Shown here: piece by piece, positions 3,350 through 6,449 of the stretch | Layout of the letters: each line of letters starts with the position of its first letter | Numbering within the stretch: position 1 is the stretch's first letter | Program-made: the position numbers and the translations under genes | The notes under the pieces: model-generated | What the model saw: only the letters and a program-made list of their open reading frames with translations | Told to the model about the DNA's origin: nothing | Database searches by the model: none | DNA from: an uncultured Schumannella sp. | GTDB taxonomy: Bacteria > Actinomycetota > Actinomycetes > Actinomycetales > Microbacteriaceae | Assembly: GCF_905479755.1 (NCBI RefSeq) | Contig: NZ_CAJQNT010000010.1 | Span: 1 to 64,000, forward strand | Reading direction: 5' to 3' | DNA length: 64,000 nt

Positions 3350-3388
3350 AGCCTAGTCGGCGGGCGGTCGCTGCGGCCTCGCTAGAAT
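3350..3388. promoter_or_regulatory. Divergent promoter region between the 151-aa gene and yebC
   Basis: Reading left, TAGGCT (complement of 3350-3355) lies 6 nt from the minus-strand ATG. Reading right, TAGAAT at 3383-3388 precedes yebC. No convincing -35 hexamer was found for either. The yebC transcript would have a short leader containing a good ribosome binding site (GAAGGAG, 3408-3414) 4 nt before its GTG. Confidence 0.5.
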
Positions 3389-3418
3389 GGGCGAGATTTC
3401 CAGCAGCGAAGGAGCACC

Positions 3419-4180
3419 GTGAGCGGGCATTCCAAATGGGCCACGACCAAGCACAAGAAGGCGGTCATCGACCAACGCCGGGCGAAGTCGTTCGCGAAGC
3501 TCATCAAGAACATCGAGGTCGCCGCCAAGATGGGCGGCGCCGATCTGTCGGGCAACCCGACGCTCGTCGACGCCGTGCAGAAGGCCAAGAAGACCTCCGT
3601 TCCCAACGACAACATCGACCGCGCGATCAAGCGCGGCGCGGGTCTCAGCGGTGAGTCGGTCGACTACCAGACGATCATGTACGAGGGCTACGGCCCCAAC
3701 GGCGTCGCCCTGCTGGTCGAGTGTCTGACCGACAACAAGAACCGCGCCGCCGCCGAGGTGCGCACCCTCATGACGCGCAACGGCGGGACGATGGCCGACC
3801 CCGGCAGCGTCGCCTACAACTTCAGCCGCAAGGGCGTCATCTCGATCACCAAGACCGAGGGCGTGACCGAGGACGACATCCTGCTGGCGGTGCTCGACGC
3901 GGGCGCCGAGGAGGTCATCGACCAGGGCGGCGGGTTCGAGGTTCACACCGACCCCTCACAGCTCGTCGCGGCGCGAACCGCGCTCGTGGACGCCGGCATC
4001 GACTACGACTCCGCAGAAGCCGAGTTCGTGCCGAGCCTTCAGGTGGAGGTCGACGCGGATACCGCGCGCAAGGTCTTCAAGCTGATCGACGCGCTCGAAG
4101 ACAGCGATGACGTGCAGAACGTCTTCAGCAACTTCGACATCCCCGCCGACGTGCAGGCCGAGCTCGACGCCGACGAGTAG
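3419..4180 (+). CDS. yebC: YebC/PmpR family translation/regulatory protein
   Basis: This 253-residue protein belongs to the YebC/TACO1 family. It opens with the diagnostic [28 protein letters not shown]. Other family strings are [28 protein letters not shown] and the C-terminal [21 protein letters not shown]. Members were first described as DNA-binding regulators, and more recent work links some of them to relieving ribosome stalling at proline stretches. Which applies here cannot be told from sequence. The GTG start has a well-placed GAAGGAG. yebC commonly precedes ruvCAB in bacteria, as it does here, but ruvC has its own promoter. Confidence 0.96.
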
Positions 4181-4220
4181 TCGCTCGGGCGGACGACTCG
4201 TCGCCCGGCTCGGCGCGCCC

Positions 4221-4236
4221 TCGTACATATGTTCGA
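4221..4236 (+). promoter_or_regulatory. LexA operator (SOS box) upstream of ruvCAB
   Basis: The 16-mer TCGTACATATGTTCGA matches the actinobacterial LexA consensus TCGAAC-N4-GTTCGA at 11 of 12 fixed positions. The single deviation is T for A in the left half. It sits where a -35 hexamer would fall, 10 bp upstream of the ruvC -10-like TAGCGT at 4247-4252, so bound LexA would block initiation. ruv genes are known SOS targets in mycobacteria. Confidence 0.8.
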
Positions 4237-4246
4237 GTGAATCGAG

Positions 4247-4252
4247 TAGCGT
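4247..4252 (+). promoter_or_regulatory. ruvC -10 element
   Basis: TAGCGT ends 6 nt before the ruvC ATG at 4259, and no Shine-Dalgarno sequence lies between, so the ruvCAB mRNA is probably leaderless. The LexA box occupies the -35 region. Confidence 0.5.
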
Positions 4253-4258
4253 CGAGGT

Positions 4259-4819
4259 ATGCGCGTTCTGGGAGTCGATCCGGGTTTGACCCGGTGCGGG
4301 GTCGGGGTGGTCGACGTCTCGGCCGACCGCCGCGCACGGCTCGTTCACGTGGGTGTCATCCGCACCGCGCCCGAGGTGCCGCTCCCGGAGCGGCTCCTCG
4401 CGATCTCGACCGAGCTGCGACTTCTCGTGGCGGAGCATCGTCCCGAGGCGCTCGCGGTGGAGCGGGTCTTCGCGCAGCACAACCTTCGTTCGGTGATGGG
4501 AACCGCCCAGGCGAGTGGCATCGCGCTGCTCGTCGCCGCGGAACACGAGTTGCCGATCGGGCTGCACACGCCGAGCGAAGTCAAGGCGGCGATCACCGGC
4601 TACGGCGCCGCCGACAAGGCGCAGGTCGGCGCGATGGTGGCGCGCGTGCTCTCGCTTCCCGAGATTCCACGCCCGGCGGATGCCGCCGACGCGCTCGCGA
4701 TCGCGATTTGCCACGCGTGGCGCGGGGGAGCCGCCGAGGCGTCGACGGCGGCGCTGACTCCCGCCCAGCGCGCGTGGCGCGACGCCGAGCGCCGCGGGGC
4801 TCGTAAGGTGGCGCCATGA
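4259..4819 (+). CDS. ruvC: Holliday junction endonuclease RuvC
   Basis: RuvC resolves four-way junctions by paired cuts within the RuvABC resolvasome. The RNase H-like fold and its four acidic metal ligands are visible: D7 (VLGVDPGL), E68 (ALAVERVF), and D141 plus D144 near the C-terminal part ([12 protein letters not shown]). The length of 186 residues is usual. The ATG at 4259 is supported by the -10 hexamer 6 nt upstream. The gene overlaps ruvA by 4 bp (ATGA), and all three ruv genes are coupled in this way, giving coordinated SOS-inducible expression. Confidence 0.98.
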
Positions 4820-5412
4820 TCTCGTCGGTTCGCGGCCTCGTGCTGGCGGCATCCGGCTCGCTCGTCGTGATCGAGGTGGGCGGCATCGGCCTCTCGGTGC
4901 AGACCACGCCCGCGGCCGTTCTGTCGGTGCGGGTGGGCCACGAGGCGCGCTTGCACACCGCGCTGCTCGTGCGGGACGACGAGTTGGCCCTGGTCGGATT
5001 CCCCACGACGGAGGAGCTCGAGGTCTTCGAACTGCTGCGCAGTGTCTCGGGCGTCGGCCCGAAGTCAGCGATCGGCGTGCTCGCCGCGCTCAGCCCGGCA
5101 GAGGTCGCCGCGGCCGTCGCTGCCGACGATGACGGGGCATTCCGCAAGGTCTCGGGCATTGGGCCGAAGACCGCGAAGCTCATCGTGGTGTCGCTGGCCG
5201 GCAAGGTGCACGCCCCGGCTCATGCGGCTCCCGCGATCCGCGCGCGGGGCGTCGACGAGAGCGTCGTCACGGCGCTCATCGGGCTCGGCTGGCCCGAGCG
5301 CGTCGCGAGTCAGGTGGTCAGCGAGGTCGTCGACGGGGCGCCCGACGAATCCGACGTCCCCGCCGTCCTGCGGCTCGCGCTGGCCAGGCTCGGCCCCGGA
5401 GGGCGTTCGTGA
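4816..5412 (+). CDS. ruvA: Holliday junction DNA helicase subunit RuvA
   Basis: RuvA tetramers grip the Holliday junction and load the RuvB motor. The N-terminal OB-fold begins [10 protein letters not shown]. Two helix-hairpin-helix motifs are visible at about residues 77-90 ([14 protein letters not shown]) and 112-125 ([14 protein letters not shown]). The C-terminal domain III (about 150-198) that contacts RuvB follows a flexible linker. The length of 198 residues is normal. It overlaps ruvC and ruvB by 4 bp each, so the stoichiometry is probably set by translational coupling. Confidence 0.98.
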
Positions 5413-6449
5413 GCGAGCCGGATGACGTGATGCGCGCGGCGCCGGAGTCGGATGTGGAGCTCGCCTTCGAAGGCGCGCTCCGCCCGCGCTCCCTGGCCGA
5501 GTTCGTTGGCCAGGCGAAGGTGCGCGGTCAGCTGCAACTGCTGCTCGATGCCGCCGCCTTGCAGAACCGGACCCCCGACCACATTCTGCTCGCCGGCCCT
5601 CCCGGCCTCGGCAAGACGACCCTCGCGATGATCGTGGCGCACGAGTCGGGTCGACCGCTGCGCATGTCGAGTGGCCCCGCGATCCAGCACGCGGGCGACC
5701 TCGCGGCGATCCTGTCGAGCCTGGTGCCCGGCGAAGTTCTGTTTATCGACGAGATCCACCGCATGGCGCGCTCCGCGGAAGAGATGCTCTACCTCGCGAT
5801 GGAGGACTTCCGCATCGACATCATGGTCGGCAAGGGCGCCGGAGCGACGAGCATCCCGCTTGAACTCGCGCCGTTCACCCTCGTCGGCGCGACAACGCGC
5901 TCGGGCTTGCTTCCCAACCCGCTGCGCGACCGCTTCGGGTTCACCGCCCATCTCGAGTTCTACGGGGACGGTGAACTCGAACAGGTCTTGGATCGCGCGT
6001 CGCGACTGCTCGAGCTCGACATCCCGACGGAGGCGCGCCACGAGATCGCGTCACGAAGCCGGGGGACTCCGCGCATCGCCAATCGACTGCTGCGCCGCGT
6101 TCGCGACTACGCCCTCGTGCACGGCGCCGACGACGGCCGCGCGCGGCTCGAGCACGTGAATGCGGCCCTCGAGCTCTACGACGTCGATGCGATCGGACTC
6201 GATCGCCTGGACCGCGCGGTCCTCGACGCGATCGTCCGCCGTTTCGACGGCGGCCCGGTGGGACTCGGAACGCTGGCCGTGTCGGTGGGCGAAGAAGCCG
6301 AAACCATCGAGTCCGTGGTGGAGCCGTTTCTGGTGCGGATCGGGCTGCTCTCTCGGACGCCTCGCGGTCGCGTCGCGACCCGTCAGGCCTGGTCGCACCT
6401 CGGAGTGGCGAGGTCGGACGCCGGAGTGCTCTTCGACGATGACGTATGA
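5409..6449 (+). CDS. ruvB: Holliday junction branch-migration ATPase RuvB
   Basis: RuvB is the AAA+ hexameric motor that drives branch migration with RuvA. Walker A is GPPGLGKT at 63-70 and Walker B is FIDEIH at 112-117. Sensor 1 lies in [19 protein letters not shown] and the arginine sensor 2 region in [18 protein letters not shown] winged-helix C-terminal domain ends the protein at 346 residues, typical for the family. The start is the GTG overlapping the ruvA stop. A strong -10-like TATGAT overlaps the ruvB stop and probably serves yajC. Confidence 0.98.

Follow-up and report, generated by a model that had tools for sequence, protein, structure and literature searches.

The window analysed here, a stretch of 64,000 nt, belongs to contig 10 of a genome assembly that totals 2.53 Mb over 54 contigs, and its RuvC finds its best named matches among the Microbacteriaceae. 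It carries ruvC, ruvA and ruvB downstream of yebC (Table 1), and as each of the three ruv genes overlaps the next by 4 nt, a single ruvC-ruvA-ruvB messenger is likely. A candidate LexA operator, TCGTACATATGTTCGA, stands between yebC and ruvC, followed after 10 nt by the hexamer TAGCGT and after a further 6 nt by the ruvC ATG at 4259. The initial annotation had reported these distances, and the packing of the whole arrangement into 40 bp, with the right numbers, and the observation of box, hexamer and spacing is confirmed. Its statement that yebC escapes LexA control also agrees with what we find, as the box lies downstream of that gene, which has a likely promoter hexamer and ribosome-binding site of its own.

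Table 1. Features of the yebC-ruvCAB locus, in window coordinates.
Feature	Position	Strand	Basis or remark
TAGAAT, likely yebC -10	3383..3388	+	sequence; putative function
AAGGAG, likely yebC ribosome-binding site	3409..3414	+	sequence
yebC	3419..4180	+	NF001030, TIGR01033 over cut-off; upstream neighbour, outside LexA control by position
Candidate LexA operator (SOS box)	4221..4236	+	sequence, genome rank, 10 further genomes alike
TACATA, -35 place for a 17-nt spacer	4224..4229	+	predicted from spacer length; inside operator, unlike TTGACA
TAGCGT, predicted -10 of the ruvC promoter	4247..4252	+	TAGNNT conservation
ruvC start ATG, predicted leaderless transcript start	4259..4261	+	transcript start predicted
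ruvC	4259..4819	+	NF000711, TIGR00228 over cut-off
ruvA	4816..5412	+	TIGR00084 over cut-off; 4-nt overlap with ruvC
ruvB	5409..6449	+	NF000868, TIGR00635 over cut-off; 4-nt overlap with ruvA

Compared with the gapped actinobacterial SOS consensus TCGAACNNNNGTTCGA, the operator is identical at 11 of 12 fixed positions, exactly as had been claimed and on the forward strand. Against the 16-bp palindrome TCGAACATATGTTCGA it is identical at 15 of 16 positions, the single departure in the palindrome arms being at position 4. No other site in the 64-kb window comes within three mismatches of the 16-mer (0.10 expected; such a site occurred in 10 of 100 shuffled windows) or within one mismatch of the gapped consensus (0.37 expected; 27 of 100 shuffled windows). 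The box alone is thus not very rare in 64 kb, and it is its place and its conservation that carry the case. In simulations of the 78-nt gap between yebC and ruvC, a box of at least 11/12 arose with a probability of 0.0003-0.0006; a box accompanied by TANNNT at 6-7 nt upstream of the start appeared in 0 to 1e-5 of the trials.

The genome encodes a LexA protein with its DNA-binding domain (PF01726) and its autocleavage (S24) domain (PF00717), both over cut-off. A scan of the whole genome, as the initial annotation had proposed, places the ruvC site among six with at most one mismatch to the 16-mer, where the reversed control gave none; at up to three mismatches there were 19 sites and 3 in the control. 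The gapped consensus at two mismatches gave 452 sites against 131 in the control, and such weak matches are therefore uninformative. The other five strong sites precede lexA, imuA' (NF058630 over cut-off), a gene for an imuB-like Y-family polymerase (PF00817 over cut-off; its NCBIfam DNA polymerase IV matches are weak and below cut-off) and two DUF222 genes. Genes of this kind make up a usual SOS set. Upstream of lexA a second box-like site accompanies the strong one as a tandem pair. At the imuB-like and imuA' genes (G000:C10:137013 and 137822), TTGACACAC directly precedes an identical box with perfect arms, and the imu operators thus sit behind a -35-like TTGACA. The boxes of the two DUF222 genes (L167:1501-1516 and L041:1501-1516) are about 50 nt or less from the likely starts.

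We then compared the ruvC upstream regions of the family. RuvC was found in 149 of 150 genomes, the window's included, and the upstream DNA of all 149 was taken; 148 regions were scored, as the start motif of L152 was not recognised, and for L113 only 98 nt upstream of the motif were at hand. The best box matched at 12/12 positions in one region, at 11/12 in 11, at 10/12 in one and at fewer in the remaining 135. In ten of the 12 strong-box genomes, the window's among them, the box ends 21-23 nt before the canonical start; in L111 and L115, two members of one genus, it ends 52 nt before the ATG. TAGNNT stands 6-7 nt before the start in all 12 genomes with a box of at least 11/12 and in one of the 136 others, counts that do not represent 148 independent observations, because the tree holds only two independent pairs. 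Nine of the 30 nearest family loci carry a ruvC box. Among 80 named loci, 79 of them scorable, two have a strong box; one is Schumannella soli, and the other has the identical RuvC of one of the genomes counted above.

Schumannella soli and the ten family genomes with a box near the start, the window's included, give 11 near-box promoters, which come from related genomes and are not 11 independent observations. All 11 share one order, in which the box is followed after 8-10 nt by TAGNNT and this after 6-7 nt by the start codon. When the promoters are stacked, 10 of the 16 box positions are invariant while the flanks differ. A -35 hexamer at a spacer of 17 or 18 nt would fall inside the box in 11/11 cases and resembles TTGACA in none, which supports the earlier proposal that the operator replaces the -35 region. 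In 10 of the 11 operators the arms depart from the palindrome only once, at position 4 or 13. This mismatch (4224 in the window, and its equivalents elsewhere) comes in four forms, T4, C4, A13 and G13. A deliberate weakening of the box was considered as its explanation and rejected, as dnaE2 boxes listed for Streptomyces venezuelae in the accessible text of PMC9380542 show the same mismatch; for the same reason a tolerated position is the more likely interpretation.

The distance of 6-7 nt is the one expected of a -10 element when the first transcribed base is that of the start codon, and TANNNT at this distance is typical of actinobacterial leaderless promoters. The TAG of the hexamer (4247-4249) is a stop codon in the ruvC frame, which makes an earlier start of ruvC impossible, and from this stop to the GVDPG motif ATG 4259 is the sole in-frame ATG, GTG or TTG. 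A search for a usable ribosome-binding site before ruvC found only GAGG at 4254-4257, 1 nt from the ATG. Together with the recurrence of TAGNNT in all near-box genomes, this is consistent with the leaderless ruvC promoter that the initial annotation had put forward. It is very improbable that the -10 element is instead TATGTT (4228-4233) within the operator, which would give a leader of about 20 nt and a messenger that is not leaderless. TATGTT does match TATAAT at four of six positions and TAGCGT at three of six, but it occurs in one of the 11 near-box boxes, that of the window, against TAGNNT at 6-7 nt in 11/11, and the GAGG is too near the ATG to serve such a leader as a ribosome-binding site. 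Relative to known leaderless actinobacterial promoters, the predicted ruvC promoter shares the spacing and the absence of a leader and differs in having a LexA operator in the -35 place.

For the relation of box and leaderlessness we used 127 scored rows, each with a different RuvC; the tree has 128, L227 being the one left unscored. Nearly all are from Microbacteriaceae, and one is titled Actinomyces. A strong box and the leaderless hexamer occur together in 13 rows, the leaderless hexamer without a box in 31, and neither in 83. Leaderlessness does not require the box, since 31 of the 114 box-less rows have TANNNT 6-7 nt before the start; 23 of these 31 are titled Microbacterium, in a sample that is rich in Microbacterium, unlike the one above, which was drawn by genus. 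These 31 promoters often read TAGCGT or TAGCCT, 6-7 nt, and then GTG or ATG. In 16 of them GGCGCGCC occurs no more than 90 nt upstream of the GxDPG motif, and the same element is present in the window at 4212-4219, just before the box. A second lineage (L258 and L259; G050 and G119) has a leaderless ruvC promoter, TAGGGT-N6-ATG; an identical box stands 40 nt before this hexamer, and the flanks are diverged. When box and leaderless hexamer were tested in pairs, two pairs on starred branches agreed in nearly all pairings, which is too few for significance. On a four-protein tree the history of the box requires at least four changes (three for the near box), a count from a quick tree with several long branches in which gain and loss are indistinguishable.

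The gap between yebC and the canonical ruvC start bears on how ruvC is read in these genomes. Every box row in which it was measured, 12 in all, has a gap of 57-146 nt, whereas in 112 box-less rows the median is 16 nt and 78 have 30 nt or less; where box and leaderless hexamer are both absent, the common state, ruvC is thus apparently read from yebC. It would follow the same pattern if in the window, too, ruvCAB were read mainly from the yebC promoter, with box and TAGCGT as weak or residual elements of little effect. The close spacing in most box-less genomes and the 83 rows with neither element speak for this, as does the yebC-ruvC interval of the window, in which no T-tailed stem or terminator and no notable structure was found on the forward strand (fold z-score -0.93; 31 of 200 shuffles fold as well). 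We nevertheless regard it as improbable, since the wide gap is found in every box genome measured, and since box, hexamer and spacing are kept while the flanks change, which points to selection. As there is no clear terminator after yebC, some read-through is possible and would dilute LexA control of the predicted ruvC promoter.

A likely yebC promoter is itself visible: of 28 family loci with the yebC start in view, 12, the window's among them, have TAGAAT no more than 50 nt away from it. The idea that the box of box-less genomes has moved to yebC found no support. In 28 of the 30 nearest loci, those with the yebC start in view (8 with and 20 without a ruvC box), no site within 500 nt upstream exceeded 9/12, and of 76 named loci in which a yebC start was available, a single one had a 10/12 site upstream of yebC. 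Loss of LexA as the cause of the missing ruvC boxes was likewise rejected, as 146 of 150 family genomes keep LexA; sites with at most one mismatch to the 16-mer occur in 113 of 150.

Control of the ruv genes by DNA damage has been described in other Actinobacteria. In Mycobacterium tuberculosis, according to the accessible text of PMC8151990, RuvA, RuvB and RuvC rise after mitomycin C in the wild type and are absent in the recA mutant, and the genes are placed under an SOS box. The same source describes PafBC promoters as RecA-independent and of the form TGTCGG-N10-TANNNT, and reports that RuvC was gone from the mass spectra upon silencing of pafBC. Induction of ruvC by this RecA-independent activator, with the box incidental, therefore has to be weighed. 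The genome holds an adjacent pair of WYL-domain genes, likely pafB and pafC, and at recA (G000:C12:13286-13395, minus strand) it has TGTCGGTGCCGGAGCGTAGCGT, a full PafBC-type motif TGTCGG-N10-TAGCGT that makes PafBC control at recA likely. A 2010 study by Dawson reportedly, to judge by its title, deals with RecA-independent induction, and an SOS box is no proof of RecA-dependent induction. The predicted ruvC promoter resembles PafBC promoters in having an element just upstream of TANNNT. However, TGTCRG-N10-TANNNT has 12 matches in the genome, with the ruvC promoter not among them, and GTTCGA stands at the required distance where TGTCRG would be expected. PafBC control of ruvC was rejected on this ground, and of the alternatives considered it is the one to which we give the least credence. 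In the recA region a weaker LexA box also occurs 72 nt upstream of TGTCGGTGCCGGAGCGTAGCGT, followed by N7-TAGTCT, an arrangement near that of ruvC.

Among the class, we surveyed 78 genomes of other families (79 with the window's own) for a box of at least 10/12 within 250 nt of ruvC. Such a box was present in 65 of the 78, and in none when the identical sequences were reversed, so that ruvC looks like an old LexA target. The 13 genomes without a box include every sampled member of families f19 (five) and f24 (five); the other three come singly from f2, f3 and f30. Family f19 (L285, L302, L309, L313 and L330) is one of large genomes, and some of its members have a degenerate half-site that closely follows ATAGCCT, an arrangement reminiscent of the weak ruvC site listed for S. 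venezuelae. Of the 62 boxes no more than 60 nt from the start, 55 are preceded by TANNNT at a distance of 0-8 nt, which suggests that in these genomes the predicted transcript start and the leader lie under the box, and 54 of the 62 genomes have a run resembling a ribosome-binding site before the ruvC start. TANNNT lies 6-12 nt downstream of the box in two of the 62, both of which also have an upstream TANNNT; elsewhere in the class upstream sequences the upstream test scored 0.7 percent and the downstream test 4.2 percent, and the two downstream cases are thus at chance level. In the clade of the window the hexamer is downstream of the box in 11/11 and upstream in 0/11. In this clade the operator therefore lies upstream of the -10 hexamer and not, as is the norm in the class, downstream of it, a layout that is new here. 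In the class genomes, which are others than the two published species, the order is -10 and then a box over the predicted transcript start and leader; in the window it is box, -10 and start codon, with no leader.

Within the order, 27 further loci were taken, of which L367 was unscored and one belonged to the family; of the 25 left, L372 and L385 repeat class genomes. A ruvC box of at least 10/12 was present in 4 of these 25 genomes of other families, three of the four with TANNNT upstream, and was missing from the other 21. Whether the layout is a general habit of SOS promoters in the family was judged on at least 35 strong sites on both strands, namely the six of the window's genome (ruvC included) and those of 29 further family loci. 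This found no support, since among the matches listed the ruvC site alone is followed by TANNNT at 8-10 nt; the others with a downstream TANNNT have it at 7 nt (two, one of them the neighbouring lexA box) or 12 nt (one), and in nine of the at least 35 strong family sites listed TANNNT precedes the box by 0-8 nt. The class contrast and these family sites together show that the layout is not the norm of the class, and that it is no general habit of the family either.

The closest described counterparts are ruvC-ruvA of S. venezuelae, both genes being LexA targets in the accessible text of PMC9380542, and ruvC of M. tuberculosis (PMC8151990, likewise in its accessible part); repressor, type of palindrome and target genes are shared. 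The S. venezuelae ruvC site is listed at -23 (PMC9380542, same part of the text), so that the box is close to the ruvC start there as it is in the window. A literature search on LexA, ruvC and the SOS box, leaderless promoters, PafBC and the Microbacteriaceae returned no title or abstract on this layout, which is weak evidence of absence as subscription journals are thinly covered. One article that matched leaderless, ruvC and LexA (PMC13388538) has the word 'leaderless', in its accessible text, only in the title of a reference.

Taken together, it is highly probable that a LexA-repressed leaderless promoter serves ruvC-ruvA-ruvB, and the reading of operator and leaderless promoter is supported by the comparisons above. 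From the DNA we infer LexA binding, RecA dependence, induction of ruvC, the transcript start and a reason for the placement. A LexA dimer on the operator would lie over the -35 region together with part of the spacer and thereby bar RNA polymerase from the TAGCGT element. Upon DNA damage RecA filaments would promote self-cleavage of LexA, the operator would be vacated, and transcription would start at or beside the A of the ruvC ATG to give a leaderless messenger of three overlapping genes. yebC would be read from its own promoter, and some read-through into ruvC may provide a basal level. An operator downstream of the -10 element of a leaderless promoter would fall into coding sequence, and the clade may have its operator on the -35 side because the proposed leaderless promoter has no 5' leader.

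A history that would accommodate these data is one that we consider evenly balanced between right and wrong. LexA control of ruvCAB would be old in Actinomycetia and would have been dropped in most of the order and the family, then restored, or retained while the promoter shifted to its other side, in a single clade of Microbacteriaceae. The result would be the opposite layout, with ruvCAB cut loose from yebC and leaderless initiation dictating the side of the repressor.

The promoter thus appears to be of an ordinary kind, that of SOS promoters, with a layout and a distribution that are unusual, an assessment well supported by comparison. It offers a natural comparison in which one repressor, one palindrome and one target set are combined with an operator on either side of the -10 element. 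If the side of the operator is tied to the presence of a leader, as we suggest, a testable rule would follow, namely that leaderless promoters force repressor sites upstream. For the family, ruvCAB, a textbook SOS target, is without a recognisable strong LexA site (at least 11/12) in 136 of the 148 Microbacteriaceae sampled.
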